From positions 12,911,697-12,975,696 of the forward strand of contig NC_092695.1 of NCBI RefSeq assembly GCF_964275005.1: 64,000 nucleotides of DNA, given 5' to 3'. This document shows positions 986-35,600 of the stretch, one piece after another. Origin of the DNA: Diadema setosum (Eukaryota > Echinodermata > Echinoidea > Diadematoida > Diadematidae). Position 1 is the first letter of the stretch; each line of letters starts with the position of its first letter. Made by a program: the position numbers and the translations under genes. The notes under the pieces were generated by a model. The model was not told the DNA's origin. It made no database searches and was given only the letters and a program-made list of their open reading frames with translations.

Positions 986-3900
986 ATCTACATTGGTTAT
1001 TTCCTGCAGCTCCTTAAGGGCAGCATTCTTGTCCTTGACGAGGATGGTGGAGATACCCAGTCCCTTGGCCGCCTTGAGGTTTGACCCGATGTCATCAAGG
1101 AAAACCATCTGTCAGGAGAGTGTTAACACAAGTGACCAATGGTCATTTGGCTTGTGAATATCATGTTACAATGACATGGAAATCAAGATCTTCATGCTTC
1201 CTGGGCTAGAATATGCTTCACAGCAATTTATTTATTTTTTTTTTTTATGATGTATGGAATACTGTCCTTTTTCTTCACAAAACTATGGATACTTTGGTTA
1301 AAATCTGACTGACACAAGTTTGGTCCAGGTGGCACAGGGGATATTGACTATGAGGATAAAATATGATGGGAAAAATGTTGGTGAAAGCCGGAAATTGGCT
1401 GGATTTATCATTTCTTTTAATCTTTATTTCAGTGCTGTGGCTTGTTCTTTATAAGGTGAATAGGGCTTTTTATCACTCGCTCCATTTCCAGCCAGAAAGT
1501 TGATTGGGAGAATGGAGAAGAAAATGGAAATAGAAAGGGCCTCACTGCCGATATATTTGAGAATAAACAGACAGTATACCTGGGTGCGAGTCATTTGTAT
1601 GCAGGTTTGCATGTTTAGTTCACTGCAGATTTACAGGGGATTACTACTTGCTTCCAAAGCAACACTGTAGTCACCGAGTGGAATATGATGAAGTACTCAA
1701 TGGTCTCTACAATCTCTCCAAAATATAAAATGATTAACTTAAAAACAAGATGAACTCAGAGACACAGTGCACATGGAGTGTTGGAACAAAACTTCATGTT
1801 CATATTCTTGTTATACCACACATGTTATACCACACAATGTCATGCATGTCACACTTATTTAAATACCAAACTATTTTCTTATTTACATGTTCTTAATATA
1901 TAAAATTCTCAAACAATTACAATGCTTCGTAAGCCGATGGGTATGCAAGCCTGAGTGCTTTCTCTTCTGACAGGCATAGATGTCTGTAAACTGATTGTCA
2001 ATGAATACAGATTACCCAATCTCCCTCATCCCTACTTTGTGACCATGGCTTTCCTGGTAGACCGATGTGCTTTGCTGCACCTGAGCGGGGCTTGCTAATC
2101 CCTAACCATGTCAGGTTTGGATTTATTTTATACTCATTGTTGATGGGGGGGGGGGGGAACTTAGCAGGTTAAGCTACATTTGTATTTCCTCGGGCACATA
2201 ATTGATAATACTGACTTGTTTTGACTTATGTATCAATGATGCTTCAAATATTAAACATTGGCCATCAACAGACCTTCCTTTTTGTGAATAGTTTAATCAT
2301 GATGCAATTTACTACAGCAAATGACAACAAAGTCAATATGATGTATGATAAAATCTTTGTAAAGCTCTTAGAAACCTAAAGTGAAGTGCTACACTTTATG
2401 GCCTCCCAATTCTAGTCAATCTTTGAAGGCTTCATGATTAAATACTACTCATATGAACCATACCTCCTCTGCCTTGATCTCTAGCTTCCTAAGCGTTTCT
2501 CTGAAAATGCTTTCATGCGGCTTGCGCTGACCGAAGCGGCAGGACTCGATGAAGTGGTCAAAATGAAAACTTGACAGTGCTGCCATGACACCAGCTGACA
2601 CAGCGTTTTGTTCTCTGTCGTCAATGTAGTTGTTGGTCAGTGCTGCTGTTTTGAAGCCTACATTGGCAATGAGGATTCCCAACAAAAAAAATTAACAAAA
2701 AAAGATTAACAAAAAAACTTAACAAAAAATATGAATACAAAAAATGATTGGTTTAAATGAGCCTAAAAATTCACAAAAACTGTATTATCAATTATTCTTA
2801 GAGTGGATCTAAGCCCATTCATTCATTTTGTAGCATTGATTTATCTTGCAAAAATATTATATACATGTATATATTAGTTTCATTAAGACATATCAAGCCT
2901 TCATTCAACTCATTATGATCAATAAATGTTGAACATTTGTTTCCATGATGAATTCAAATTAATACAATGATATGTTAACTTCCAAAGTTATGTTTATTAT
3001 AGGATTAAGATCTATAAGTTCTCCTCCTACATGAGTTACTTGACAAAATGCTGCTACAGAACATGTAATTTGTTATCACCTTTAGCATGATGTCCATTGT
3101 GATTTAAACTGGTACAGTATTGCCAATTCTAAACTAGGACTTCCGCACATTCTAATTTGTACAGATATGTTGGCCTATGTAGCTGAACTAATTAGCACCA
3201 TAGTCCATTGTCACATGACTGCGGTAGAGGGAAGAATAAAAATATGATGAAGTATATGACGATCAGCTGTGTTTCATATGAACATATCCTATTGTTTTAA
3301 AAAAAAGAGAAATATATATATACATATATATATATACATATATCCAAGCAGTATCTTATCGTTCTCATGTTTCATTGAATATTTCTACGCTGATGTTGAC
3401 TATGAGGCGAGATATTTACCATGTTGCCGCAGCACTGCAACAGCATTGATGATCTCTGGGACCAGTTTGACCGACATGAAGGCATCAAACATGGTCCTGG
3501 TGTTGAAGTCCGGTGGTAAGGTCACGCCTTCCTCCTTGGCCGCCTCCCTGCACTCCTTCTGAAAGTGCTCAGTGAACTGAGGAAACAAGCAAACCAATGC
3601 AAACACCAGCCACATTTATTACATATGAGCATTTCCCAATCACTAGTAAGCTATTAGCCACACTTGATCACATGACTGCACACAATTTGCAATGCTCTCC
3701 CACAGGCAGAACATTGGTATGTATGTTTTCCTATGGCAGAACATTTTATGTAAGCAAAGGAACATGGGAAGAAGAAGAGTGTAATGAAATAAGTGCACCC
3801 AACTGGGTACATACTGTGCATAATAGGGACACTAAAGCTGTGCATAGCTGGGCATAGCTAGCTGGCGTGTGATCTTGCTGCTGATGCTTCTAAGTGGCTA

Positions 3901-6900
3901 CCACAGAAAATTCAAGATGTTCCAAAAGTGGTCACAACAGAAATTTGAAGGTAAAGGTTTGTGTCTAACCCATCTCTACGTAATATGATGGTTTCGTTGT
4001 CAAGAATAGTGTTAGTTCATTATAAAATGATCTTGAAGGCAAATGTTATCACCGGAATACTAGTAGTAAAAATTAGACCACATACTTGCATTCCTGCCAC
4101 TACCGATTTCCCCATAATTCAGATGACATGCATCGCATTTGTGCTAAGTGAGGCAATATTGTTTACTTCATCAATATCACTTTACTCATGAAATTCTTGA
4201 AATGATGGGCATGCACATAGCAGATAATCCTAAAAATCAACTTTACCTATTACTACAAAGATGCCACAAGCAGGGTCTTTCAGTTAAAACACATCACTGC
4301 TAATTGCTGAATTGTTGAGCTGTTTTTGCTGTTTATGTGAGGGGATGGTGTAATGTAGATTCTCATTGCAATTTAAATATTGAAAATGAGAAACTTGTCT
4401 ACCATTTTAGAGGAACATGAGTGAAACAAACCTGTCTGGCTGTCAGCTCACCCCGCTCCATCTTACAGAAAGTATTATCTGGCATTCCCCTGATCAGCAC
4501 CCCCTCCAGGAACGATCTGGAAGAAACAATACAAGATATTTTCAGCTAAATACATTTGATATCTTCCAGCCTTTCTGCAACAGAGGGATCATCGTGTAAG
4601 ACTGTGAATAAAAAATGAAACATAAAGGGGGAAAGGATAGATCCTGAGGGATAAGAAAGCTGAGAAAGTAGATGAAAAGGAAGTGAGAGTAGGACATATA
4701 GCTGTATGTATGTGGACAAGAAAGGATAGATGAGGTAGGTAGAAAGGCAGCTAGCAGAAGACACAAGGCTAGATGGCAAAGATAATACAAGCTATAGGGC
4801 TTGAAGGAGGGATAAGAAAGTTGAGTAGAGCTAACAGTGAAAAGGAGGTGAAAGATCAGAGAGCAAGACAGGGGATTAAAGGTCCAGTTTACCTTTGGGA
4901 GCAGTGATTTAAAAAATGTTCAAGATATGCCATTTGATGCATATGTGTATAGGTCTGTTGTATCACAAAATATCCTACTATATAAGATTTTTGCAATAAA
5001 GCCTAAGATATAAGAAGATATCTGTGTTTTTCTCAATAAACCATAACTGTAAATGGTTTAGTCTGGAAACATTTTTATTACAACTATTGTTCACAATTTG
5101 TGTATTTAACTACACGTAACATCGATTATACGGATTCAAATTTTTACAGTGGTTGACTCACATTTTAGAACTATTTTAAGGCACTAATGCTGGGTTTTTG
5201 TTTCATCTGCAAATGGAGAGGAGGGGGAAAACACAGAAGGCAGAGAACTATCAAAGAAGAAGGGCAAGAAACAGGAATCAACGTGTACCACATCTGAGCT
5301 TCACAATGGTATAACTACATGTAATACATGCCCGATTTTCTGTCTGTGAGTTTCCAATATTCATGACATTAGATATTAATTCATTTTAATCTGTTCCTTA
5401 AGATATAAGATCACATATTTGACCATCATTTATTAAGATTAGTAGAGCATCATGGGAATTTTACAGAAGTGAAGATCTAGGGAAACATGAAATGGATGGT
5501 GTCCAGTAACTCTGCCATTCTTGCTGTACATTGAATAAGACTCCCATGACTTTGTAGCATGACCTCAGTCAGCAATGACCTTCACAGTGTTTGCTCTTCA
5601 GCTTTCATATGGTCAGTAGGAGAGGGAAAAAAAAGAACCACTTCAAACTCTCATATTTACCTTTACCTCCTGCCAATATTGGTAGAAGGTAACACTAGGT
5701 TTTGTTTGGAATGCCTTGCAAAGGTTAGACCAGCAGGTCAGCAAACAAAATATAGAATGGAGGCTCTTTTAACAATATGTAGGTCACAGGTCAATAATTC
5801 TTAGAATTTTGTTAGGCCCTGCAGTAAATTTGTATGATGGAAGCAAATCCTGAAAATATGACCCGGTTTCCTTTTCTATATTAGATCTTTGCCTTTGCAA
5901 GGACATTGCATAATCTTAATGTACCAGGGTGGTCCACAACTTGAAATTTGATCATGTTGTCATCTCTGAATGTGAAAATTCATACTGTGGAAATACTAGA
6001 AATCGTACACGTGCACAGAGCAAACATCACAAGAATGTAGCACATAATATTTTGTGACTTATTTCTCGTTCTGATCTGTGGTTTCGCGCTGTGCGCGCAG
6101 AGATGAAACTACTGATCAGAGGTTTAAAACTACTGATCAGCGGTTTCGAGCTCTGCGTGCAGAGTCAAAAACTACTGATCAGGGGTTTTGAGCTGAGCGT
6201 GCAGAGTTAAAAACTACTGATCAGCGGTTTTGAGCTGTGCATGCAGAATTAAAACTACTGATCAGAGGTTTTGCTTTGCTCATGCAGAGTTAGAAACCTC
6301 TGATCAGTAGTTTTTACTTTGCACGAGCAAAGAAAAACCTCTGATCAGTGGTTTAGAACCACTGATCAGTGGTTTCCCCGACTTTTGCAACACATGGTCT
6401 TCCATAGACCAGCGGTTTTGAGCTGTGCGTGCAGAGTTCAAACTACTGATCAGAGGTTTCGAGCTGTGCGTGCAGAGTTAAAACTACTGATCAGCGGTTT
6501 TGAGCTGTGCGTGCAGAGTTAGAACTACTGATCAGAGGTTTTGCTTTGCTCGTGCAGAGTTAGAAACCTCTGATCAGTAGTTTTTACTTTGCACGAGCAA
6601 AGAAAAACCTCTGATCAGTGGTTTAAAAGTTCTGATCAGTGGTTTAAAACCACTGATCAGTGGTTTCCCCAACTTTTGCAACACATGGTCTTCCACAAGT
6701 TCTATTATACTAGTAAGCAACATCAAAGTCTGTGCTCTCGCAAACTGAGGATCAGCATCTATTTATCTATTTATTTATTATTACTAGGTCTAGATGGTCT
6801 ACTATTTATTCAGCCAAATGGAAATGACAATAACATTAACATATACATTCACATGGAAATCACAAAGCTGATGACTGATGTATATTAGATTAATAGATAT

Positions 6901-7389
6901 TCTAACACATAAAAGTTTACCGGTACTGCGGTAGCGGTACACAGTTGGCGTAGATCTATGTATAACACAAAGTATGAGCAGGGAAGCAATACATGGTTAT
7001 GGGCTAGGGCTCACAAAAGTAGTTCTTGTTAGTGTAGCCCTTATAGTATAGGCATGTGAGCAAGTATTGCCGATACCGTGCAGATCAATCCACAACCTGC
7101 GTGCTTTGGTAACTTACACAAGTCAAGTGTCTGGTGTCACTTACCCGGGAAGCCCGATTGATTCTCCGTACTGCTTGATAGCATTCTGAGGTGGCTCGAA
7201 TACGACGCCTCCTAAATCAAACACGACTGCCTTCTTGGAGTTCTTGGCCATTTCTGTCGAAAATGAACGCCCTGGGAAAGAAGCACAGATCCTTCCTCCG
7301 TTTAACTGAGTTATGACAGAATATTTGCTCACTCCAAGCCGTAAATGCGATGTTCTTGTGACAAAAGTCCGTAGGATTCTCGTTGTCAT
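986..7389 (-). CDS. EPHX2: EPHX2-like bifunctional epoxide hydrolase, copy A, exons 1-5 (3' part outside window)
   Basis: Five minus-strand exons read in order: 7389-7145, 4516-4432, 3576-3420, 2657-2464 and 1108-986. All have AG/GT borders and open, phase-compatible joins. Together they encode the N-terminal HAD phosphatase domain of soluble epoxide hydrolase, which in vertebrates dephosphorylates lipid phosphates. Visible motifs are FDLGGVVF (nucleophile Asp present, second Asp of DxD replaced by Gly), ALTNNYIDD (Thr-Asn), GQRKP (Lys) and VFLDDIGSNLK (paired Asp). Lengths of exons 2-5 (85, 157, 194, 123 nt) equal those of copy B exactly. The exon 1 reading frame starts at 7389, 46 codons before the Met that aligns with copy B. 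The extension MTTRILRTFVTRTSHLRLGV and what follows is rich in Arg, Ser and Thr and nearly free of acidic residues, like a mitochondrial presequence. Exon 6 onward (the epoxide hydrolase half) is not found before position 1 and should lie to the left. Family assignment is certain; start choice and targeting are inference. Confidence 0.9.
1109..2463 (-). other. Copy A intron 4
   Basis: 1.35-kb intron, including a G run near 2143-2157. I see no gene or clear mobile element in it. It is about nine times shorter than the equivalent copy B intron. Confidence 0.7.
2678..2745. repeat. Short A-rich tandem repeat (ATTAACAAAAAA-like)
   Basis: Four to five imperfect units of about 12-16 bp (TTAACAAAAAAA) lie just upstream of copy A exon 4 in intron 3. 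Confidence 0.7.
4517..7144 (-). other. Copy A intron 1
   Basis: 2.6-kb intron. It holds the palindromic minisatellite at 6085-6675. The stretch around 5540-5800 matches, in reverse orientation, copy B intron 1 around 30300-30680; shared words include TGACTTTGTAGCATGACCTC. The stretch around 4600-4860 resembles copy B intron 1 just upstream of exon 2 (about 32150-32450), again inverted. About 4877-5210 begins TTAAAGGTCCAGTTTACC, which looks like the end of another dispersed repeat, but I found no matching second end. Confidence 0.7.
6085..6675. repeat. Minisatellite built on a 20-bp perfect palindrome
   Basis: About 15 copies of a TGATCA-centred motif of the form AAACYWCTGATCAGWGGTTT; one version, AAACCACTGATCAGTGGTTT, is its own reverse complement. 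Copies are about 41-46 bp apart in most of the array, separated by GAGCTGTGCGTGCAGAGTT-like spacers, and about 21 bp apart at the ends of the two blocks. A higher-order duplication of about 270 bp is visible: 6256-6400 is repeated at 6526-6690, including the tail TTTGCAACACATGGTCTTCC. Confidence 0.9.
7252..7389 (-). other. Putative mitochondrial targeting presequence of copy A
   Basis: Codons 1-46 of copy A, before the internal Met at 7251-7249 that begins MAKNSKKAVVF. Arg/Lys and hydroxylated residues dominate, and the only acidic residue is the Glu just before the internal Met. The stretch RSFSTEM aligns with the codons just upstream of the copy B start (SSFSTAM), so it is ancestral sequence under translation or recently so. 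An internal start would instead give a cytosolic protein, and dual targeting by leaky scanning is possible. Confidence 0.5.
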
Positions 7390-7859
7390 TGTTCGGCATT
7401 TATTAATAGCGACAAGGAAGCCTGCCTGCAGCTAGCTCACGTGTGTTTCTCAGGCTTCCAGGCGCAGGCTCGCTCTAATGTTTACAGTGGGTCGGTCCTC
7501 GGGCAGTGTTCGAAGAGGTGGGTGTGTCCTTCCAATTCCGCTCCGAGTATTGGGGTTTGTACCCCAGGTTCGTTAACAAAGGGTTTGCTCTTTGTCTACA
7601 GAGCAGAGAGAAGGGAAAACTCTTGAGCGCCGGGTTTACTCAGGTGCACAAAATGCCAGCAAACTGGCAAAGTGTATGATAGACAGATTTGTTTCAGAAA
7701 GAAACCCTAGATGAGTTAAACCAGGGAGGTGAGACAATCATCCCTGGTTACACACGTGAGCAGGCCGTGGTACGACGAGATAACTATGGAACGCCTTTTG
7801 TGTACGTTTGTGTCTCTTATGTGTGTTGGTGTACATTCTACACAGTCAAGGCTTTAAAT

Positions 7860-8490
7860 CTAATTTGAATGAATGAATTTGTTACGAAATTTCAGTGATA
7901 CATATTCATATTTTTGATAAATCACAATGATATATTTTATATACACCTTGGTAAGGATGCTAACAAATAGCATATGCTAATCGAGGTTAGCCCCACAAGG
8001 TTACAAGAATCAATATCAAGCGCTAATAATTACTGAAAATATACATCTCTCATATCTTTTAAGATAATAAAGCATATATATACAATATTTACAATAAGAA
8101 TAACAGTAATAGCCATGACAAAAAATAATGATAATAATAAAGAATATCAAATGAGTTTGAAATAAATAAAATGAAAAATAATGACCTTCATTAACTTTTC
8201 CGAAATTAAATTTCAAGTTGGTATTCCACTAGCTCAATGAAGTACCGTTGTAGGCCTAATGTCCGTCCAAAACTTATGCAATTGAAAATATTTCTTAATT
8301 CTTTTGGCAAATTATTCCATATAAGGTCCCGAATATGGAACTGATTGTTTCCCTAGATTGATGTTACTCATTGAAACACTCACATTAGATTTCACTTTGT
8401 TTCTTGCTTGATAAGTGTGTTCTAGTGCTGAGAAATAACTAGATACACATAAGGAACTTGAGGCAGATATGGTATGTCACGCTTATCTAG
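7860..8490 (-). pseudogene. LINE 3' fragment, minus strand
   Basis: On the minus strand about 8485-8225 reads as a broken C-terminal LINE protein: one frame gives HTYQARNK and another gives FHIRDLIWNNLPKELRN, the usual W-N-x-L-P motif before the LINE stop. At least one frameshift separates the two stretches. The 3' side ends in an ATTC-rich short repeat near 7868, as LINE tails do. Confidence 0.55.
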
Positions 8491-8610
8491 TCCAAATATA
8501 AGTTAGTCTGAGTAAAATCTTAAAAGTTCAACGGTTAAAATTTGACTGAAATCGAATGAAAAATAAGGAAGTTATGACATTTTGAAGTTTTGCTAATTTC
8601 TGCAAAATAG

Positions 8611-8880
8611 TACTCTCTAAAAAATCGAGTGAAAATATTCACTCTTGAAAGAGTGAATACAAAAAAGAGTGAATTTTGAGTGAAAATGTTCATTTTCACT
8701 CATTTTGGAGTGACCTCAAGGATCACTCGAAGATTCTGGAGTGATCCCTGAGGTCACTAGAAAACGAGTGAAAATGAACATTTTCACTCAAAATTCACCC
8801 CAATTTAACTCGAAATTCACTCTTTTCTGATATTCACTCCTTCAAGAGTGAACATTTTCACTCGATCTTTTTTAGAGATT
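8611..8880. mobile_element. Palindromic MITE, about 270 bp
   Basis: Nearly the whole element is an inverted repeat. CTCTAAAAAATCGAGTGAAA on the left is mirrored by a CACTCGATCTTTTTTAGAGA right end, and the arms repeat GAGTGAAAATGTTCATTTTC. It abuts the LINE that starts near 8883. Confidence 0.85.
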
Positions 8881-8882
8881 AC

Positions 8883-10350
8883 TTGTACAGTACTTGTACA
8901 TATAGAAAAACCAAAGATGTAGATATAGATACATTAAAGGCTGATCTCTCAAAACAGAACTGGGTGGAAGTTGAAGAAGATTGTATTGCTAAATGTGCTG
9001 GAAAATTTGAAAAATTATTATTTGAAGTTGTTGATAAGCATATGCCCGTAAAAACTAAGAGAGTTCGGAAAACTCAATCACCGTGGTTAAATGAAACAAT
9101 TTTTTAATTAATGAAGGAAAGAGATTCATTAGAAAGGAAAGCTATAAAAACTAAAGATGAGAGTACTGGAAAGAATATCGTAAATCAAAAAAATAAAGTA
9201 ACATCTTTCATTATGAAGTCTAAACGCAAATATTTTATTGAACAATTAACTAAAGATCAAAGTCATAATAATTCATGGAAAACATTATCATCAGTATTAC
9301 CCAAGAAATGTTCTTCCTCTCAGCCTTCACCAAGTCAGTGTCAAAGCATGGCAAACAAATTTAATCACCATTTTGCCAATGTTGCAACCAGTTTGATTTT
9401 TGAATCAGCTGATACTGTAATAGAACCTGTAGACAGATTATGCTGCCACATGCGAACCATGTGTGCAATATCCATTAACGTTTCTACTGTAAGTGAAAGT
9501 GAAGTTTTAAAGGAAATACAGCAATTAGAAAATAAGAAGTCAGTCAGATTAGATGGAATATCAGTCAAGAACCTAAAAATGTCTAAGGATGCAATTGTTC
9601 GACCAATAACTTTTTTGATTAATAAATCTATAACCCAGGGAAAAGTCCCAAATAAATGGAAGATAGCAAAAATCATTCCACTACATAAAAAGGGTGATAG
9701 ATTGATTCCAAGCAATTACAGACCAATTTCTATTTTTTCGTGTTTATCAAAAAATTCTTGAAAAGATTATACAAAAACAATTACTTCCACATTTAAGTAG
9801 AAATGATATACTTAAAACGGAACAATCCGGATTTTGGCCAAAACATTCAACCTCCACGGCACTGAATAACCGATGAATGGTTGAAGTCCTTGGATAACGA
9901 TTTATACACTGGTGCACTCTTTGTAGATTTGCAAAAGGCTTTTGATATGATCAACCCTAAATGCCTGCTGCATAAACTTTTCACAACAGGTATTAACGGT
10001 CCCACCCTTAAATGGTTTGAAAATTATTTATCTGACAGAAAAATAGTAACTAGTTTAGGTAATTGTACCTCCGAAGAAATGGATATTAAGCTCGGTGTGC
10101 CACAGGGATCGATATTGGGTCCATTGTTGTTTATTATATTTATCAACGACTTACCTTCCATATTTAATTCATATATAATGTGCATTTATATGCGGATGAC
10201 ACCGTTGTTTATTTTTCTCATAAAGACCCACAAAAAGTACAAATAATTTCGAATAAGGAATTATTTGTTTCAGACAGCTGGATGTGTAAGAACAAATTGA
10301 AAATTAATTATGATAAAACTGTGAGTATGTTAATTGGTAATAGATGTACA
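8883..10350 (+). pseudogene. LINE (Jockey/CR1-type) with reverse transcriptase, broken
   Basis: Successive frames encode the linker after the endonuclease (TQSPWLNETIF), then an RT domain: IIPLHKKGDR, SNYRPISI, GALFVDLQKAFDMINPK, GVPQGSILGPLLF and the catalytic YADDT near 10190. The 5' endonuclease part is missing, and there is a stop at 9106-9108 plus frame changes near 9760-9880 and 10180, so it is dead. The C-terminal half after the thumb is absent; sequence decays into the ATTCCGAAGG repeats after 10360. Confidence 0.88.
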
Positions 10351-10363
10351 GAAATGGTTACAG

Positions 10364-10450
10364 CTCGTTATTCCGAAGGTTCGTTATTCCGAAGGCTCTT
10401 CAGTCCGAAGATTCATTATTCCGAAGGTTCGTTTTTCCGAATTTCATTTT
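10364..10450. repeat. Tandem CGTTATTCCGAAGGTT units
   Basis: About five imperfect units of roughly 16 bp (ATTCCGAAGGTTCG) directly after the LINE fragment. Confidence 0.75.
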
Positions 10451-10689
10451 CGGATAGCCCATAATCTGCTGCACTTTTCTGGTGCCGCTGGTCTTATGGG
10501 GACCAGTTATAAAGAGGAATGGAAAAGAAAGAAAAAAGAGTAGAAGATTACATATAATATAAATAAAAAATTAATCTCATGAAATATTCATTTAGAATGC
10601 AATATTATACAAATTCTCAAGGCAAAATACGCTTTCTTGAAAAGTGTAGATACATTTCTTGTGTATCAGAATATATATATATATATATC

Positions 10690-10790
10690 TTTTTATTGTG
10701 CAGGGCCCCTTGGTAGAGCAGTTTGTTAACTGAAAGGGCTACCCTGTTGAAATAAAACGGAAATAAAATAAATAAATAAATTAAACCGTT
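10690..10790 (+). repeat. Retroposon-like 3' tail
   Basis: GGGCTACCCTGTTGAAATAA followed by AAATAAATAAATAAA. This resembles the 3' end of a LINE or SINE, but no body is recognisable upstream. Confidence 0.4.
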
Positions 10791-11439
10791 CTTGTTAAGA
10801 GTCAATGTCAATGTACAAATGTACATTCATAGATTGTGCTCTGAAATGAAAAAAAAAAAAATCACAAAAATGAAAAAAAAAATGAAAAAATGAAAAAATC
10901 TAATCACAAAAATGGTTACGTCAATACCAAAAGGGCCAGTCAACTACGAGCCATGGGATGCAGTCATGCATGGCACAACTCTCCTATAAAGGTGGCCCTT
11001 GCAAGTTTACCTACATGACCTGTATCAAAATCAGCATATCAAACATCTATCACATAATTGTGATGTCAAAATGAAATATTATAATGGGAACTTGATTACA
11101 CTATAAAATTACTGAATAACCACTTGCTGTCACGTTAGTAATAGAGAGGGTCATACATTCACCTCAGAGATTCATTTTTTTTGCTGTCTTTTGATGTGTT
11201 TTTTTAATGACCTGCGTCTTATTGTGCTGTAGCACCTCTGTTTCTTTGTGCTAAAGTGCCAGTAATATTGAACGCTTTCAACAGAGGGCAGAAGTGCTTT
11301 CACCTTTGACCTCTACAAGGGGGGGGGGGGGGCCTTCGACTCTCCTTGTGTCACATCTCTCCCGCATTTCCTCTTACATCGGACTCGAGCAGCTTCGATC
11401 CTGGATATTGTTATGGTATGAGACTGGTAGAAAATAGAA

Positions 11440-11665
11440 GGGGTTTTCCCTTCAAGACTTCAAGTCCTACAAACGTGTTTGTTACCCTGAATCCCGGCGA
11501 AGAAAACCGCAATATTTTAGAGCCATTGCCCTGACGAGATATCTATAAACAATGAAATGTGTGTAGAAACCCTCACTTTCGAAGGTAGAGAACATTGACC
11601 GATCACAATCATGTATGTACATCGGTACCTGTGCTTCATTTGTGACTGTTTAAGCCAACTTTTCA
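11440..11665 (+). repeat. Partial duplicate of the BRICHOS gene's upstream region (block B')
   Basis: Aligns well with 14200-14400. Shared words include CAATAT(T/C)TTAGAGCCATTG, CCCTGACGAGATATC and TCGGTACCTGTGCTTCA. It also carries a kappaB-like GGGGTTTTCC at 11440, matching GGGGCTTTCC in the other copy. Confidence 0.85.
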
Positions 11666-11759
11666 TTGGATTTTTCTATCATTTCTACCAAAAGGTGATG
11701 CGTTTTCGTTCAACGGATCCTTAAAGGGGGTAGGAAGAGGTAATGTGCTATAGATATAC

Positions 11760-11801
11760 GAAGGTATAATAATAATATTAATACTGATATCAATAAACGT
11801 G

Positions 11802-11862
<61 letters not shown>

Positions 11863-12001
11863 TAACAATAATAATAATAACAATGAATTATGGATAAATA
11901 AGTAATGTGAGTCGAGAGCTAGGGGAAAGCACAGGACTGGATTCGAACTCGGGTCCTCCGATTGAAAGTCAGGAGTCTTATCCACTATACCACGGTGCCC
12001 C
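11760..12001 (-). mobile_element. tRNA-derived SINE with (TTA)n tail
   Basis: On the minus strand, from 12001: GGGGCACCG, then an A box (TGGTATAGTGG) and a B box (AGTTCGAATCC), then about 40 bp of non-tRNA body, ending in a long (TTA)n run at about 11790-11880. The tRNA-like cloverleaf is imperfect (mismatches in the T stem and anticodon stem), so it is a SINE head and not a working tRNA gene. The sequence between the boxes is Glu-like, with CTTTCAA in the anticodon position. Confidence 0.7.
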
Positions 12002-12487
12002 ACAAGAAGGTCTTCATCATTACAATAAGTATCTAGGCTTTTTGTAAATCAACTTTAGATTTACCCATAATGATAGCATCATCAGCATATTATGATAATG
12101 TTATTAGATTATAATAAGTGACTGTGTCCTCAGTCCGCAGTAATTTATAGGGTTGTTTCGATATCACCTTTAAACGATTACATCTTTAGATTTAAGCATT
12201 TTATTATAGCAAATAAAAGAGGTGATTGTCACCTTGTAAGAGGTGAAACATCTGACCACAGCGTGACATAACACATGATTTAGCATTCTTGTATAAGATT
12301 GATAATAACATTCAAAATTTTGCCATCAATTCCATGAGCGATGATACATTTTCATAGTTTAATCCTATTGATCGAATCAAAAGCCTTTTATACCACCGTC
12401 AATGAAAGCACAAAAAAAGTCGTTGCTTTTTTTTTTTTCCTTTCGGCGTAGGAAAATATCAATAGTTGACTGTCTGATATACCGTAC

Positions 12488-12522
12488 CATTGACTCCGAC
12501 GGGCCTACTTTTGCATTCCCTG

Positions 12523-12553
<31 letters not shown>

Positions 12554-12626
12554 TATAGATAGTTGTTGTTGTTTTTTTTTTTTCCAAGCAAGTTAGAAGT
12601 AGGCCCGTCGGAGTCAAGGAATGCGG
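12488..12626. repeat. Inverted repeat hairpin with 20-bp arms
   Basis: TTGACTCCGACGGGCCTACT at the left returns as AGTAGGCCCGTCGGAGTCAA at the right. Between them are a polyA run, (AT)n and a polyT run. It sits directly before the LINE 3' end at 12627. Confidence 0.8.
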
Positions 12627-14818: not shown

Positions 14819-17800
14819 ATGGAGAAATCAGGATCACAGGTGAGCTTTCTAGACTGATAATATCACAAAAATGATTTTACAGCATAATTCGCACTTTTAT
14901 GTGTGTGTGTGTGTGTTTTGTTTTAAAAAATTAAATTACTCAACTTGTGGACCCCAGTTGGATGCAGAACGATTTATCAAGCTATTACACAAACTTTTCC
15001 GTATAAACAATGCATAGTGCAGTGCGGTCTCATTGCAATCTTTCAAGAAATATACAATTCCCCTAAAACAAACAGCACTATAGAATGTTCAATTCCTCGC
15101 AACTGTTCCAGAAAGTCAGCAATGAAGTACCAGATTTATATACAGTGGTATCCTCGGCAATGAACATAATATTATTGTCATGATATCATGATCAACGTTG
15201 ATATTCATTTATCTAAGATCTTCGCACAGTTAAAATGATGGTACAGTTAAGTGAGACCCACCATTTATTAGGATTGCTTTGCTTTTGCATTTCTAAGCCA
15301 TTTCAAAAACAATTTTTATAGAGTAAACTTCGATTTCCTCTTAGAATTATAAGCTCTTTAACATTTCATCTCAAGTCGTTTCTCAATATCTCGTAAAAAG
15401 TTAAGAGCTGAATCACGTCACGTCACGTCAACAAATACTATACAATCACTTTGATATCTCCGGAGTTCATTTCTGTTTATTCAAACACCTCAAAACTAAC
15501 TATCGACATCTTCCATGTCTTCTCTGGCCTATTGTTAGTGCGACAACTCCTCGTCTCTGCCAGCGTACTCCGAGATGGGGGCAGATACGGCGTCACCAAG
15601 AGCCTCGCGATTCGCCTTCTGGAGGATCCCCTGTACCGCTGTTCTCATAACAGCTCTGCTTGTAGCCGGTGCCATCACAATCGCTGCAGTGGTTCACCAG
15701 GGGAGTGCTCAGTGTCAGGAACCAGCCAAAAGTGGTCGCCTAAATGGGGCACGCGATCAAGTCCTCGATCATGATGCAGTGAGTGCAAAGAAACTTCACA
15801 TACTTTATATAGATTCCATGATGATAATGTTAGATATTATGGTCATGGTGAAAATGGTGATCATGATTTTTCAAAAATTTCGTAGCATTAATTTAACTTT
15901 AAAATTATTTTATGTTTGCATGAATAGGCCTTAATAGAATTTGAAAACTTCCACTCTGCATGCAGGTAATCATATTAAATCATCGATGGCATGAAAGTTC
16001 TACAATGCAGATTACATATCCATACAAACGCTTTCACGGAGACTAAGAAAGCTTAAAAGACAAAATAGATATAATAGTGTGACTATTACGACTATTTTTC
16101 TCCGAAATGAAGAGAATATCTACTCAGAAATTAACCCCAAAATTAATCAATTATGAACTTCATTTTTATCTGATCAAACCGTATCACTTGGTTGATTTTC
16201 ATGCTGTGGTAAGAGGATCGTTATACAGAAACAGTTATAATATTGTGATGTAGGCTGACTTCTTAATAATTCATACGCTGAAATTGTGCCTCTCAGTCCT
16301 CTGTGTAACATTGTATCTGTTCATGCGTTTCACATGAGACTGACTTTTGACAGGTATTGGCTGAACCTCTTAATAATAATCATGCCCAAACACAAGTCAC
16401 TACGTCATAATACGACTCATCCGAAGAGTTAGTTAAGGCCGTTTAAACTGATCACGTGATTTGCAGGTTAGGCACTTGGAGCTGAGGGGCGGAAACGGGG
16501 AGTCTGCCTCCGAAACCGTGACCTACAACAGCGTCCTCAACACTGTTCTCATCAACGCTCCTGGTAACTTCAGCGATGGCTCGCCAGCGACGATCGCGAT
16601 CGACTTCGATCGGGTGAGCTTGATTTCAGGTTGCTTCCTCTAGAGTTACATTATTTTTCTTGATGTGCAATAACAACATGATGAAGTACATATTACATAA
16701 TACAGAGCGTGTCAAAAAAAAAGAAGAAGAAGAAGGTAATCTAAATTTGGAGGGCTACCGTTTCATAATAATTGTCAGCTATGGAGAGTGCAATGTTGGT
16801 TGTAAGGAATGAAGAACTCTTCCTCTTTCCATTGATACCTAATTATGTTGATAAAGTTTAATTCATGTATGACTGAGAACATGAACTTGAAAGACAGCAA
16901 TGCCCCTGTGCACTTTCAAGCACCTCCACGCACATTCACCACCATCACACATCAGAGTTTAGTTTCCCCTGCTATCTTCGCAGCAGAATTTGTATTGTTA
17001 CGAATTTTAATACGTTCCTACCTTTTCCTCGGGCCGGCCATCTTTTCAAGCAATGCTTACAATGGCGGCCCTCTGCATTATCGCTTCTTAAATGTAATAT
17101 TGTTATTGTAATCCCTGCTGCATAGACATGCATACTGTAATATTATATCATTAATTTCCTTTTATATCGTTGTTTATGCAAGTCAAACGACTCTGTTTCA
17201 AATATACTTTGTATGTTTCCCATGTTCATGATTATGTAATTTATGTATATATTGATTTGCAGAAAATAAAGTATCTATCAAACAAACAAACAAACAAAAT
17301 CGCATTTTTTCCAAGTTTGAGTGTTATCGTGAAGGAACAATTAATGTCCCACTGAAGTGATAGGATCTGTCAATGACGTTTAACAATCTGGCGCACAGTC
17401 TAAGGTGAAATAGTCGAACAGTTTTCTGTTTAAAAACAAACAAACGATTTTTGCACATTATCCGCAATCACGGGGGGGGGGGGAGGAAGGGTGCAAAATG
17501 ATTGTTTTTCCCCAACATTTTCTATGAGTGGGAGGGCAAGGGGCATCGACATCCCCTAATAACTAAGTAATTCACCATGTTGTAGGAAATGGCTATAAGT
17601 TCGTCCTTTGGTTTTGGGTCTTTTAGTTGTTTGTTGTTGTTTTTTTTATTTTGTTGTTGACGCATCCCTCATGGAGTTCCTTTGTACTTTTCAACCATAT
17701 CATTATTGCTTCTATGAATCCCTCTGGCAGAATGTGGTGTTTATGAATATCCATGATCAGAACACGTGCGTGGCTTTCGCCCTTGAAGACAAACTGGCAC

Positions 17801-18613
17801 AGATGGCAGAGAACTTCACCAGGAACAAGGAGCATAATCAGGTATTATTGAAAAGTTTATGTATGCTATTGTGTATGTCCATGTGTTTGCATGTTTACAT
17901 ACATTTTTACATTACATATTTACATACATTGTATTATATATATATATATATATATAATTATATATATGCATACATATATTATATATGTATATATATATTG
18001 CATAATATACAATATAATATAAAATGTTAGCGTGCTTGTTAGTGTGTGTGTGTAAAGTAATTCAACTGAAGATGCTCATCACGTGGTTACGTGAAGTGGG
18101 GTTATGACTACTCACAGTTTTGAAACTCAATCAGTGTTTGACGTATAGGTTGAAAAAGGAGATCCAACTTGACCTTCTGTTTTATAGTAGGAGAATCTGT
18201 CATATTCCAAGTACCTTTTGATCCGTTGGCCCCTCAAAACAAGCGCTGTCTCCATTGTACATGCCTGCTTCTATTTCCATGAACCGCTTAGTTGGTGTCG
18301 ATTTCAGTTTATAGAGCCGATTTAACGGACTACTTTGATTTTTCCCCCTTGCATTGACCATTTTGTTCAGGTCATCGACTTGGTCTCGGACAAGATGGAG
18401 ACGGAGAATTACCGTGTCTCAGGAACAATCCCGGAGGGCTACGTCCAGGCCGCAAACGGGCCTATCATCCGAGGGATGTGCAGCGGTCGAACGTCTCAGT
18501 GGCTGGAGGTGGAGACCGATGGCGCGATGCCAGGAAGGCAGAGACGCGACCGCACTTACGTCTGCGTAAAAGTGCTTGGCATCAAATATTGCTACTGGCG
18601 GTGGTACGGATAA
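14819..18613 (+). CDS. BRICHOS-domain type II membrane proprotein with C-terminal hairpin peptide (arenicin-like precursor)
   Basis: Five phase-0 exons: 14819-14839, 15575-15778, 16467-16613, 17731-17841 and 18371-18613, giving 241 codons. Residues 1-24 are short and cytosolic, and 25-47 (IPCTAVLITALLVAGAITIA and on) form one membrane segment. After a linker comes a BRICHOS domain of about 80-200, with AIDF Asp121, Cys137 and Cys198. The Asp-to-Cys gap (16) and Cys-to-Cys gap (61) match chondromodulin/tenomodulin BRICHOS. Two N-glycosylation sequons (NFS, NFT) are lumenal. RQRR at 217-220 is a furin-type site, followed by residues 221-241 containing YVCVKVLGIKYCYWRWYG. In annelids, BRICHOS precursors release beta-hairpin antimicrobial peptides (arenicin, alvinellacin, nicomicin, capitellacin) from exactly this position. 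Net charge of the released peptide is about +3, and its terminal Gly could be an amidation donor. Exon 2 could alternatively supply the start Met (15575). Family confident; antimicrobial role inferred. Confidence 0.85.
15240..15412. mobile_element. Half copy of the 390-bp inverted-repeat family
   Basis: Resembles the right half of 19351-19740: ACCATTTATTAGGATTGCTT, GATTTCCTCTTAGAATT, CTCTTTAACATTTCAT. It lies in intron 1 of the BRICHOS gene. Confidence 0.5.
17936..18026. repeat. (TA)n-rich microsatellite
   Basis: Alternating TA with scattered C/G in intron 4 of the BRICHOS gene. Confidence 0.85.
18551..18610 (+). other. Predicted mature cationic beta-hairpin peptide
   Basis: Follows the RQRR site. 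Cys226 and Cys235 flank eight residues, VKVLGIKY, that pair symmetrically (V-Y, K-K, V-I) around a Leu-Gly two-residue turn, so one disulfide would staple a hairpin. An aromatic, basic tail YWRWYG follows. This is sequence reasoning only. Confidence 0.65.
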
Positions 18614-22254: not shown

Positions 22255-25145
22255 TTAACACTCATACATCATTATATTTCGATAAAAGATATTTTTTTCA
22301 TAAGTGCCTTAAAAGAATGTAATTTGGTGGTTGTCTTAATTTGCTCGGGGAGATTATTCCAAACGTCAGGTCCATGATGTCTAATTGACTTGTGAGCTAT
22401 CATTAACTTGGGATTGTGGAGGTGATAATCTTTAGAATGTCGAGTTGGGTAAACGTGGACGCTGGAGTTCACAGTGAATAGGTTGTGGAACGAGGAAGGG
22501 AGGGTGTTGGATTTGTATTTGTACATGAATATTGCACTTTGTAATGTATGAATATCATGGATTTTCAAAGTTTTCAATTTAAAAAATAATGGTTCAGAAT
22601 TTGCAAGATAATGTGAGTTGGTACAAATGCGGAGTGCTCTTTTTTGGAGAAGATGAACTGATTGAATTTTTGTCTTGTTAGAATTTGCCCATACCATATT
22701 GCAGTATGTGATGTATGGTAAAATCAGTGCATTATATAAAATAAAAAGAGACTTTTCTATCAAAAAATCTTTCAGTTTGAACAATATACCTATTTTTCTT
22801 GATACAATATTACTTATATCATTTACATGTTCATTCCAGGTAAGATTAGCGTCAATAATTACACCAAGAAATTTAGTAGACTTTTTTCTACAAGGGGTAA
22901 CCCATCAATATATAAATTACATTCAATATCAGAAGAATGAACATTTTTGAAATGTATAAAATTAGTTTTATCAATATCTAAAGATAATTTATTGCATTTG
23001 AACCAGGAAGAAACTTTACCTAATTCAAGATTAAATGTGTGAATAAGTATCTGTGGATCTTTATGTGAATAAAATATATTTGTATCATCTGCAAACAAAA
23101 TGTAAGTTAATATTGGTGAAACATTAATTACATCATTAACATAAATAAGAAATAACAGAGGGCCTAAGATAGACCCTTGTGGTACTCCACAATTGATTTT
23201 TAACCTCCTGGAGGAACATGAATCAAATTCAACATATTGCTCACGGTTAGATAAATAATCGGTGAACCATAGAAGAGGTATTCCTCGAACTCCATAATGT
23301 TTTAATTTGCGGATAAGAATTTTGTGATCAATAGTATCAAATGCCTTACTCAGGTCCATAAAAACTCCAACAATATGTTCCTTATTAATAAAAGCTTCAA
23401 TTATCTTATCACAAAGTTGAGTAATAGCGTAATCTGTAGAATGGTTTTTCCTAAATCCGAATTGATTCGGAATAAGAATTTCATTTTTATTTAAAAAAGA
23501 AAATAGTCTTTTATAAACAATTTTCTCTATAATTTTTGATATGCTTGGGAGAAGGGATATTGGGCGGTAGTTTTTTAGTTGTGTGTGATCGTCTTTTTTA
23601 TGGATGGGAACAGTGGCGTATCTAGGGAAAACGGCGCCCGGGGCAAGCACGAAAATTGCGCCCCTAATTTATGAAAAAGTGTTCAACCCCTACCCCATCC
23701 GGGTAGGGACTTTAAACCAAGTCCACATGATGCTTTTTCAAGCACTTAAAAGGGATCTTTTGAGGGTGATTTAAATGTAATGAATTTTGCTAGATTTTGG
23801 CGAGCGAGCGCAGCGAGCGAGCCAAAAATTTTTGTATTTCAGCTTACAAAACATGGGATTCTTGTCATTTTTTGCTTACGAAATCTTACAATTCTAATCA
23901 AGATTATATGACGGCCTTATATAGATAACGATTTATACCAAAACACTGAGGACTTGAAAAAATACTCTAAATTAGTGCGCGCGAGTGAGCTGAAATTTGT
24001 ATGATATATGTCCTCGTCATCATCACGTGTTGTTCTTATCTTTTTTATATAAATTTTGGCGAGCGAGCGCAGCGAGCGAGCCGAAAATTTTTGTATTTCA
24101 GCTTACAAAACATGGAATTCTTGTTATTTTTTGCTTATTAAATCTCACAATTATAGTGACGACCTTATAGATAAAGATTTATACCAACAAACTGAGGACT
24201 TGAAAAAATACTCTAAATTAGTACGAGCGAGTGAGCCGAAATTTGTATATTTCTGCGTCATCATTACGGTTTTTTTTTCTTATCTTTTTTGATTTTTTTT
24301 TTTTGCGCCCCCCTCCCCCGTATGTTCGAAACCGTTGGCGTCCTCTTTTGATCCAATCGGCGATCGCTTCAGAACGAATGAAATTGCAGTCGCTGCTCCA
24401 TGTAACATTTTCCTGCTGAATATAAAATGACATGAGTGAACACAATAGACATTATCATTTTGTCCGCGTCATCGTCACGTTTTGTTCTTATCTTCTTCTT
24501 TTTTTTATACAAATTTTGGCGAGCGAGCGCAGCGAGCGAGCCGAAAATTTGTGTATTTCAGCTTACAAATTATGAAACTCTTGTCATTTTTTGCTTATTA
24601 AATCTTACAATTCTAATCAAGATATAGTGACGGCCTTATAGATAACGATTTATACCAACAATCTGAGGACTTGAAAAAAAAAAATACTCTAAATTAGTAC
24701 GAGCGAGTGAGTCGAAATTTGTATATTTCCGCGTCATCATTACGTTTTGTTATTATCTTGCTTGATTTGGTTTTTTGCCCCCCCCCCCCCCCATTCTCCC
24801 TCCCCCCTCCGGGCGATTTTTTTCTTCTTCTTCTTTTTCTTCTTCTTCGTTTTTTTCTTTTCTTTTCTTTTCTTCTTCGTTTTTTTTCCCCGTTTTTTTT
24901 GCGCCCCCAACAATGTTAACTATTTCATGGTATGAAGTTGGTGAGAAAAAAAGAGAAATATCAAATGATTCAGAAAAATACTGCATAAAATCAATATCGG
25001 TTTCATTTATGGAAGATGCTAAATTTGATCCTATATTAATAAAATAATCATTAAAAGAATAAACAATATCAATTGGGTCCGTAATTTCATATCCATTTTC
25101 AAATACATGAATACATGTATTACATGACATTGTGTGCCGAATTGT
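22255..25145 (-). pseudogene. LINE (CR1/Jockey-type), minus strand, interrupted
   Basis: Reading the minus strand: 25130 to about 24910 gives the pre-RT region (FNDYFINIGSNLASSI...SYHEIVNIVG). After an unrelated 1.3-kb block, 23630-22860 gives the RT with VPIHKKDDHTQLKNYRPISL, GVFMDLSKAFDTIDH, CGVPQGSILGPLLF and catalytic FADDT. Then 22784-22272, in another frame, gives the C-terminal part ending DVWNNLPEQI and a stop. About 70 residues expected between the first two pieces are missing, so the insertion came with a deletion. At least one frameshift near 22860 adds to the damage. The RT frame itself is long and fairly fresh. Confidence 0.88.
23611..24909. mobile_element. 1.3-kb repeat inserted in the LINE, with about 250-bp internal tandem units
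   Basis: Starts CAGTGGCGTATCTAGGGAAA and ends TTTTTTGCGCCCCCAAC. Inside are three copies of a unit of about 250 bp at roughly 23795-24045, 24050-24290 and 24510-24775, each with GCGAGCGAGCGCAGCGAGCG and a matching ACTTGAAAAAATACTCTAAA. No protein is encoded. The CAGTGGCG start suggests a non-autonomous DNA transposon end, but I see no matching inverted copy. Confidence 0.65.
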
Positions 25146-32600: not shown

Positions 32601-35600
32601 TCAACTGAAAGAATGATCCACACGCATGGAGAAAAGACTACAAAATATCTCAAATGTAACAGCTGAGAGATGTTTGCACTGTTTCTTCAATCCAGATCAT
32701 TCCTGGAGAAGGTAATCATCGGGGGAATGCCGGACAATAGTTTCTGTAAGATGGAGCGGGGTGAGCTGACAACCAGACAGGTTTGTTTCACTCATGTTCC
32801 TCTAGATGGTGTCCAGAAAACTTTCTTGTTTTTGTAAATGCAATAAGGATACACAATACATACTCCCTTCATGTGAAATGACAAATTGTGCAACTCAACA
32901 AATCAACAATTATTAGCAGTGACTGTCTTTAAATCGACAGACCCTGATTCTGATATCTTTATTGGTAGATGAAGTTGGTGTTTGTGATTATCTATTGTGT
33001 GCACCATTTCAGGAAATCCAGGAGCCAACACTGATGTTCACATAATGATTAATAACATTGCCTCACATAACACTATGCAAAGTATGGAGTATCATTTTAA
33101 AGTGGAATATTGCAAACATTGCGACTTGATAAGGGATGTTACTTATTTCTCATTCAAACAAAATGGGTCGTGACGAAAAATTGAACCTGACATGAAATTG
33201 TTAACCAGTCCTTTTTCATATAATATGCTTGCAAATATATGACAATTTTAGTAGTAGCATTGAATTGGTTTGCTTGTTTCCTCATGCAGTTTACTGAGCA
33301 CTTTGAGAAGGAGTGTAGGGAGGCAGCTAAGAAAGAGGGTGTGACCTTACCACCAGACTTCAACACCAGGACCATGTTTGACGCCTTCATGGATTTCAAG
33401 CTGGTCCCAGAAATCATCAATGCTGTAGCAGTGCTGAGGCAACATGGTAAAAATCTCACCTCGTAGTCAACATCAGCATAGAAAAATTTCATGAAACAAA
33501 GAGATCAAGAAGATACTGCTTGGATGTTTTGTTACAAGAAGATATGCATACATCAAGTAGAGCTGGTCCTCATCAACAGTTTTGCATTCTCACTTCCTGA
33601 TGGTTATCTCTAGCCTGGTGAGCATAGTATACACCAATATACACCAAGAATTGTTTTGTGGATAGAAAGGGATTGTATCATGAGAAATCTCCATGTGAGT
33701 GCATGAAAATCTATTAACATTTTTGAGGTAGATTCATTTGACTCTAATTCAGTCCATTTACAATCACAATGGAAGTCATGCCAAATGAGATGATGAATAA
33801 CTTGCTCTGTAGCAATATTTAATCAAGGAACCCGTGAAGGAAGAGATAGTAATGATAGATCTTGATTTTGTGATAGACATGATGCTGTGTTATTATTTTG
33901 CTAATACAAATTCATCAAGGAAGCAAATGTATGTGTACAAATTTTTGAATGATACATCATTATGAATAGAATGACAACTTTTAATGTTAAAATGAATCTT
34001 GATATGCAACTTTACTGCTGGGTGGATTGAGGCTACCAAAAAATGAAAAAAATCATAACAAGAATGAATCCAAATAAATATTTGATTGATGATCAATTTT
34101 TTTTTGTAAAATTTGAAACTCTTACTACAATGAATTGTTTGATGTTGGGAATCCTCATTACCAATGTAGGCTTCAAAACAGCAGCACTGACCAATGACTA
34201 CATCGACGACAGAGAACAAAACACTGTGTCAGCTGGTATCTTGACAGCACTGTCAAGTTTTCATTTTGACCACTTCATCGAGTCCTGCCGCTTCGGTCAG
34301 CGCAAGCCGGATGAAAGCATTTTCAAAGAAGCAGTGAACAAGCTTCGGGTCATGGAAGAAGCAGTAAGCTTGATATAGTCATTGAAGCCTTCAAAGATAT
34401 ACTGAAGTAGGACTGGCTTTGATACGGTGCAGCACTCGATCACCAGAACTTTACAAAGATGTCGTCATACACTATTGATGAAGTCATTTTGCAAGATATT
34501 GCATCATAGATAAGATGTTCATTAGCAAGTTTTGTTCTCTGTTCACCTCAGGTGTGGAACATAATTATGATACAGGGCACTTATTATGCGCCAATTTCAC
34601 ATGACTAATGTGCTCAAGGTGCAGTAGGATAAGTGAATTATGGAATACAGTTTCTCATTACACACACATGTACATGGAAGTAAATGAAACAATTATAATG
34701 AAAAAATAAGAAATCACATAATAGTAGGCCAGCCAAGACGATTTTTTTTACTTTGGACGGCAAAATTTGTTAATGCTAAGTTTTCCAGCTGAAAGTCTTG
34801 CAAAAATACTAAAGTTTAGCGTACGGCCGGATGTCAAGCGCGTTTTTGCCGAAAAATGCCTTTTTTAGCACAAAATTTCAACGAATGTCAAAAATCACGA
34901 TTTTTATTTTTTTACCGAAATAAGTAATGGTTGATAAGTACCTTTCAAACTAGAAATGTGTTATCTTCCATTTCAAGTTTAAAACCTGACTAATATGCAT
35001 TTGAATGTAGAATTTTTACACGCACATATATGGCGCAATGAAACATAAAAACTTGATTTACTCAAAATTGTACTTTGTAAAATCTACCAATATTTCAAAG
35101 TTTTTTTAAACTACCTAAATCAATCTATTCAAAAGTTTTTAGTTTTCCGAAATATAATATATATTCTGATATCTTATGCAGCATAGAAATTACAAGATAA
35201 GGCGAAAGATAACTCGTTTTATGTTATCCTAAATGGGACGATGTATTTTTACCGGACGCGCATTTTGAATGAAAAATCGAATGTATAGCGTAAGCCCATA
35301 TATATATATTGTACATGGTATAGTGCGTGTAGGCATGTATCTTACATAATTGGCGAAGTCAATGGACAGGTTGGATAGCTGACTGCAAAACCCTTTGTGG
35401 CACCTTGATATGACTGAAATGTGCTTCTTCCCCCCCCCCCCCCTCAAAAAAAAAAATCATAATAATAAAATCAGTAGTGTTGTTACCATGGCAACTGATC
35501 ATCATTAGGTCATTCCCTGAAAATGTCAAATATTCATAATTGTTAAAACGTACGAAAGTGTTGAAACATTTTGTGTGTGTGTGAAAAATGTATCAATCTA

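Follow-up and report, generated by a model that had tools for sequence, protein, structure and literature searches.

A candidate BRICHOS-type peptide precursor and its gene family in the sea urchin Diadema setosum

Do precursors that couple a BRICHOS domain to a releasable beta-hairpin antimicrobial peptide occur outside the annelids? The question is raised by a gene in a 64,000-nucleotide stretch of the Diadema setosum genome (contig NC_092695.1; G000:C11:12911697-12975696), hereafter the window, in which an initial annotation, made from the letters of the DNA, had proposed an arenicin-type BRICHOS precursor in a deuterostome invertebrate. The host was rightly placed, being a sea urchin with a protein 100% identical to the gene product. 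The proposal itself stands for the gene family, in which the precursors are BRICHOS-type and paralogs bear arenicin-3-like four-Cys tails, and which may therefore be regarded as an arenicin-type precursor family outside annelids, although the peptide of the window gene is a weak example of it. In our judgement the product of the window gene is probably a BRICHOS-superfamily proprotein, anchored in the membrane as type II, that releases a 21-residue cationic beta-hairpin, a probable membrane-active host-defence peptide.

The precursor gene and its BRICHOS-type domain

From ATG to stop codon the gene spans 14819..18613 (+), exact to the base as first annotated, with five exons, AG/GT borders, and introns that are all in phase 0; the protein, originally given as 241 residues, comprises 253 when spliced and is identical (100% identity and coverage) to the NCBI/UniRef entry 'uncharacterized protein [Diadema setosum]', here P0001. 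Protein matches at E ≤ 1 (5.8 billion clustered proteins; 593 candidates) were P0001 and ten relatives, all from D. setosum or D. antillarum, and a profile search, in which the best 7,997 candidates by shared words were scored, yielded one further D. setosum protein, P0012. The features of the gene are as follows.

14819..14839 (+): exon 1, coding MEKSGSQ, with phase-0 donor GTGAGC; a 7-residue equivalent occurs in 12 of 13 loci
15539..15778 (+): exon 2, remaining N-terminal segment, membrane segment, and stalk; its residues fall within the P0001 match
15626..15694 (+): membrane segment, about residues 37-59, hydropathy maximum, preceded by Arg, conserved in the family; presumed type II orientation
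16467..16613 (+): exon 3, start of the BRICHOS-type domain, last residues IAIDFDR
16602..16604 (+): Asp133, taken as the BRICHOS Asp, in 11 of 11 family proteins; closes model strand 126-133
17731..17841 (+): exon 4, middle part of the BRICHOS-type domain
17767..17769 (+): conserved Cys149, in 11 of 11 family proteins, within model strand 148-153
18371..18613 (+): exon 5, remainder of the BRICHOS-type domain followed by the cleavage site, the C-terminal peptide, and the stop codon
18479..18481 (+): conserved Cys210, in 11 of 11 family proteins, terminating model helix 203-210
18536..18547 (+): RQRR, residues 229-232, putative furin-type cleavage site, read from the sequence
18548..18610 (+): putative mature peptide DRTYVCVKVLGIKYCYWRWYG (residues 233-253); a hairpin with strands at 234-241 and 244-251 is predicted
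18563..18565 (+): peptide Cys238, paired in alignment with an inner Cys of arenicin-3
18590..18592 (+): peptide Cys247, C-x8-C with Cys238, paired in alignment with an inner Cys of arenicin-3

Along the protein, about 36 residues with an Arg near the membrane lead into the hydrophobic segment, which is followed by a stalk, a domain at about residues 87-222, RQRR, and the tail. The membrane segment is single, as annotated (one hydropathy peak, Kyte-Doolittle maximum 2.67 at residues 41-59); an N-terminal hydrophobic segment is a feature of the BRICHOS superfamily and is conserved across this family, as is Cys66 of the stalk in the family alignment. D133 is taken to be the BRICHOS Asp on the basis of the usual BRICHOS spacing. 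With that choice, the triad D133, C149 (+16), and C210 (+61, or +60 in two members) is retained in all 11 aligned family proteins, in agreement with the annotated Asp and two Cys at BRICHOS spacing, and D135 is likewise invariant. One Asp and two Cys are the conserved residues of BRICHOS domains (PMC10182729, PMC6265681; excerpts, a word that here and below marks sources cited from the portion of their text available to us). The predicted fold also fits that of BRICHOS domains, in which a central sheet has two flanking helices, an Asp ends strand 2, and a disulfide joins helix 2 to strand 4; BRICHOS-type anatomy and, on prediction, a BRICHOS fold are supported for the window gene product. Resemblances to Ependymin and LolA were dropped because BRICHOS scored above both for the P0011 model. 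Against the PDB, the full window protein retrieved designed beta-trefoil proteins only, and the P0010-P0012 subset three dipeptidyl-peptidase chains (E 1.3-1.4); the family profile retrieved two trefoil-type designs, arenicin-3 (E 0.58), and AA139 (E 1.7).

A multigene family and its C-terminal tails

Directly after RQRR, and as the initial annotation had described it, lies a short cationic tail of 21 residues (net +3 by letters) whose release is putative; by sequence and prediction, a furin-type site precedes a Cys-linked beta-hairpin. The outer Cys pair of the arenicin-3 frame is replaced in this tail by Arg (CGC) and Trp (TGG), the inner pair being kept, and the same two places read TGT or TGC in five compared siblings. 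The likeliest reading of these codons is a two-disulfide hairpin that dropped its outer bond and retained the inner one.

Likeness to arenicin-3 was gauged for 12 proteins against 20,000 shuffles each, with Cys held fixed. The tails of P0006, P0007, and P0008 share 15, 14, and 14 of 19 residues with arenicin-3, likenesses that none of the 20,000 shuffles reaches, and 11 of the 15 identities of P0006 lie outside Cys; P0003 and P0004 have 11 and 10 of 19 (10 and 65 of 20,000 shuffles by score), P0005 has 3 (321 of 20,000), and P0002, P0009, P0010, P0011, and P0012 are within shuffle range (3,508 to 12,592 of 20,000 reach their scores). Among the genomic loci, the tail of L036 (= P0008) has 14 and those of L037 and L038 (= P0006) have 15 of the 19 arenicin-3 residues. 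The P0006 tail, picked as the most arenicin-like, matched 12 PDB sequences, namely arenicin-3 at the top (E 7.7e-6), three other arenicin-1/-2 sequences, the 'BRICHOS domain-containing protein' 7ald, and the designed or chimeric peptides AA139, NZ17074(N1), N2, N6, Ap9, G6, and SCP-A6, all seven of which we take to be derived from arenicin-type peptides. As judged from these alignments, the tails of some paralogs are strongly arenicin-like and that of the window copy weakly so, and the window peptide is a weak member of an arenicin-like series. Searches for annelid relatives returned Diadema proteins only, both with propieces (small or best-scoring candidate sets) and with the P0006 tail region as query for annelid precursors (three Diadema proteins among 6 candidates).

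A six-frame search of the genome (912.7 Mb, 102 contigs) with P0001 gave 50 exon matches, and one with a distant family member gave 37 matches and zero new loci. At least 15 family loci, a lower bound, were counted: 12 on C15 in three groups (7 at ~29.89-30.02 Mb, 2 at ~30.43-30.47 Mb, and 3 at ~35.91-35.97 Mb), the window gene on C11, one on C3, and one on C4. Exons 2-5 were recognised at all 12 C15 sibling loci and exon 1 at 12 of 13 loci including the window, the exception being L041, where 238 bases upstream of exon 2 were covered. Such recurrence, like the low BRICHOS-region dN/dS between the window gene and five paralogs given below, goes beyond chance. Gene models with AG/GT borders were made for 14 loci, that of L043 being without exon 2, and L044 was read in part; at L031, L033, and L034 the limits of exon 2 are approximate, and exon 2 stands outside all difference counts.

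Tails with the spacing C-x3-C-x8-C-x3-C occur at L033, L035, L036-L039, and L041, and L034 has five Cys. With cutting at the first basic site, the net charge is +2 or higher in 10 of the 14 tails, zero in 2, and negative in 2; cutting later would bring L040, L041, and L043 to about +1, counted from letters. At L042 the last exon places after the usual cleavage site a tail of 30 residues that is acidic (net -4) and has four Cys, from which it appears that the family may also release non-cationic peptides. The tails of P0010 and P0011 equal those of L033 and L035. Conservation of the tail in related species, a further point of the initial annotation, is seen for paralog L038 and not for the window copy: the five D. 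antillarum proteins retrieved all lack the window tail, and L038 and D. antillarum P0006 have the same 22-residue tail.

Some loci stand apart. L037 (G000:C15:30012500-30022499) has an in-frame TAG in exon 2 and an open, arenicin-like last exon, and is likely a pseudogene or null allele. At L031 (G000:C15:29885500-29895499, -) the genome has an open last exon ending in GCHQVCLNIFFVINLCWTYCD, and P0012 ends in an unrelated stretch; because of that open exon, the deposited P0012 model looks mispredicted at its end. Two distant members (G000:C4:26461294-26464896 and G000:C3:29824044-29827390) have differing hydrophobic or Cys-rich tails. They share one long branch in a tree of 20 BRICHOS sequences (midpoint root; 10 of 17 inner branches drawn open) and may be older family genes; closest to the window gene by path are the rows of D. 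antillarum P0004, L041, L039, L040, and L042.

In the mechanism that we favour, the proprotein would insert in the membrane as type II, an orientation suggested because an Arg precedes the membrane segment; the lumenal BRICHOS domain would most likely chaperone the beta-prone tail during folding, while its Cys pair oxidises; a furin-like convertase would cleave behind RQRR, freeing the 21-residue hairpin; and the freed cationic hairpin would disrupt microbial membranes. BRICHOS domains act as chaperones (PMC9714404, PMC10182729; excerpts), furin-like activation has been proposed for annelid BRICHOS precursors (PMC9410094, excerpt), and annelid BRICHOS peptides damage membranes (PMC10745061, PMC9410094; excerpts). 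The window gene would be a dispersed one-disulfide member of a Diadema family of at least 15 loci, some of whose members would make two-disulfide, very arenicin-3-like peptides.

Known systems and rival explanations

The arenicins of the lugworm Arenicola marina, arenicin-3 among them, share with the Diadema family a four-Cys hairpin of about 21 residues with the same C-x3-C-x8-C-x3-C frame, placed, according to excerpted accounts, at the C-terminus of a BRICHOS proprotein; they differ in that preproarenicins have an N-terminal signal sequence (PMC9410094), whereas the Diadema proteins have an internal membrane segment, and in that the window peptide retains the inner Cys pair only. Transmembrane BRICHOS precursors have been described from spoon worms and, as five precursors, from Heteromastus (PMC9410094, PMC10745061; excerpts), and echiuran BRI-21 (Bonellia, Urechis) and Heteromastus HfBRI resemble the Diadema proteins in their short N-terminal piece, transmembrane helix, BRICHOS domain, basic site, and C-terminal peptide, HfBRI also in that one species has several peptide structures; these systems are annelid, however, and the likeness is drawn from descriptions rather than residues. 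Alvinellacin and capitellacin likewise derive from BRICHOS proproteins whose last exon encodes the peptide, and the Alvinella multigene family is partly tandem (excerpted accounts); the alvinellacin propiece is ~33% identical to those of arenicin and capitellacin (PMC4002450, excerpt). Their genes have six exons, with the last alvinellacin intron in phase 1 (PMC4002450, excerpt), in contrast to the five exons and phase-0 introns of the window gene, and in Alvinella the peptide is constrained and the BRICHOS domain diversifying (PMC5431198, excerpt), the opposite of what is seen in the window-gene pairs.

Strongylocins, centrocins, PpCrAMP, and holothuroidins are host-defence peptides of echinoderms as well, but a BRICHOS family is unnamed among echinoderm antimicrobial peptides in the available part of PMC11767717. 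A 2019 review placed BRICHOS antimicrobial peptides in polychaetes, apparently in marine worms only (PMC6780910, excerpt), and in a literature search conducted largely without full texts or supplements, no prior report of a sea-urchin BRICHOS antimicrobial peptide was noticed. An occurrence outside annelids nevertheless has some precedent, because antimicrobial activity was predicted for two coral BRICHOS proteins in a 2026 proteomic study (PMC12960093, excerpt).

How the likeness between urchin and lugworm peptides arose can be read in two ways. We tentatively propose, as a possibility, that a cassette of BRICHOS chaperone and C-x3-C-x8-C-x3-C hairpin predates the protostome-deuterostome split and that Diadema kept it and expanded it to at least 15 loci with varied tails, the window gene marking a two- to one-disulfide shift within one species. 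Convergence, to which we give slightly less than an even chance, would have an ancestral BRICHOS chaperone whose arenicin-like tail independently reached a short, strongly constrained amphipathic hairpin, and is compatible with a host-defence role. It would account for the confinement of arenicin likeness to part of the Diadema family, for P0010 and P0011, which have the same Cys spacing and 5 and 7 of 19 arenicin-3 identities, and for the failure of echinoid and annelid propieces to match each other in protein, profile, and P0006-tail searches of limited candidate sets; it sits less easily with the 15 of 19 identities of P0006, unreached by any shuffle, and with the recurrence of the full spacing in two separate Diadema tail groups. 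An identity exceeding that of shuffles would favour ancestry shared with the lugworm; the BRICHOS parts, which failed to match in these searches, and the exon count, which differs from the six of alvinellacin and capitellacin, would not. A worm source, through contamination or a recent horizontal transfer, finds some support in the lugworm origin of the nearest solved peptide but is highly improbable: at least 15 loci lie over four contigs, three of them of 38-49 Mb, with common phase-0 introns, family proteins occur in two Diadema species, on contigs of unlike size, and the BRICHOS part has no detected annelid relatives in the same searches. Contamination was rejected on the first and second of these grounds.

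Several observations weigh against a host-defence precursor of the arenicin type. Pfam returns no BRICHOS hit for the window protein at E ≤ 1, an outcome named as refuting in the initial annotation, although 2 of 11 family members match PF04089 (86/91 positions; 16.7 and 18.2 bits) below the cut-off of 25. The window tail has no PDB match at E ≤ 10 and shares 8 of 19 residues with arenicin-3, with 203 of 20,000 shuffles scoring as well. Siblings have KR, RR, or RQER at the cleavage position, and RQER belongs to L036-L038, the most arenicin-like members; R-x-x-R is a rarer convertase site (PMC6265681, excerpt). Neutral or negative tails at 4 of 14 loci, under the first-basic-site cut, would also suit an ordinary Bri2/ITM2-style membrane protein whose C-terminal hairpin is regulatory or has another, non-antimicrobial role. 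Bri2/ITM2B carries a furin site. It likewise has a membrane segment, a BRICHOS domain, and a C-terminal hairpin, and its released peptide, Bri23, is reportedly without antimicrobial activity (PMC6780910, excerpt), the layout of hydrophobic segment, BRICHOS, furin site, and hairpin being general to the superfamily (PMC9714404, excerpt). A Bri2-like role is nonetheless unlikely given that the Diadema family is larger, an expanded multigene family with varied tails, three of which in D. setosum share 14-15 of 19 residues with arenicin-3.

Divergence among paralogs bears on whether the window gene is instead a relaxed, decaying dispersed duplicate, drifting after loss of its outer disulfide, which we consider quite unlikely. 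It is the sole copy found on C11, has Arg and Trp at both outer Cys places, and shows in its mature segment a ratio of nonsynonymous to synonymous divergence (dN/dS) of about 0.56 to 1.33 against five paralogs; yet it keeps an intact reading frame, intact splice borders, and the basic site, its BRICHOS-region dN/dS against the same paralogs is 0.28-0.38, and both outer Cys were lost jointly with the inner pair kept. For these five pairs, which are non-independent, a 2.8- to 7.8-fold larger fraction of nonsynonymous sites differs in the mature segment than in the BRICHOS region (odds ratios 3.95-14.2, Fisher p 2.4e-4 to 1.8e-11), with no significant rise in synonymous differences (p 0.07-0.57). 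In six other pairs of the 15, synonymous differences too are raised in the mature segment (p<0.05), a further point against the favoured reading, because of which the family tails, instead of evolving faster than the chaperone, may in part be of greater age or have undergone less homogenisation. Among L036, L037, and L038, mature segments are separated by 0-1 nonsynonymous changes. The mature-segment divergence falls short of evidence for positive selection.

With its arenicin-3-like tails, the Diadema family allows a direct test of deep ancestry against convergence, and its natural chaperone-client pairs, up to 15 in number, lend themselves to asking how a BRICHOS domain deals with clients that change. 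The family is also a new candidate source of immune peptides in D. setosum, a species that feeds on algae and coral (PMC11066563, excerpt) and is entering the Mediterranean (PMC13264686, excerpt).

Neighbouring sequences in the window

Two fragments on the plus strand, 34031-34375 and 49118-49507, are of HAD-hydrolase (E 0.0013) and alpha/beta-hydrolase (E 0.00035) type, under Pfam cut-offs, and a third hydrolase-like fragment at 7144-7431 (-), recognised by eye, has no Pfam match; together they suggest epoxide-hydrolase-like genes near the BRICHOS gene. The gene is flanked by reverse-transcriptase open reading frames of the long interspersed nuclear element (LINE) type, one at 22862-23668 (-) with an RVT_1 match (E 2.8e-36) and one at 9866-10246 (+) identified by eye.

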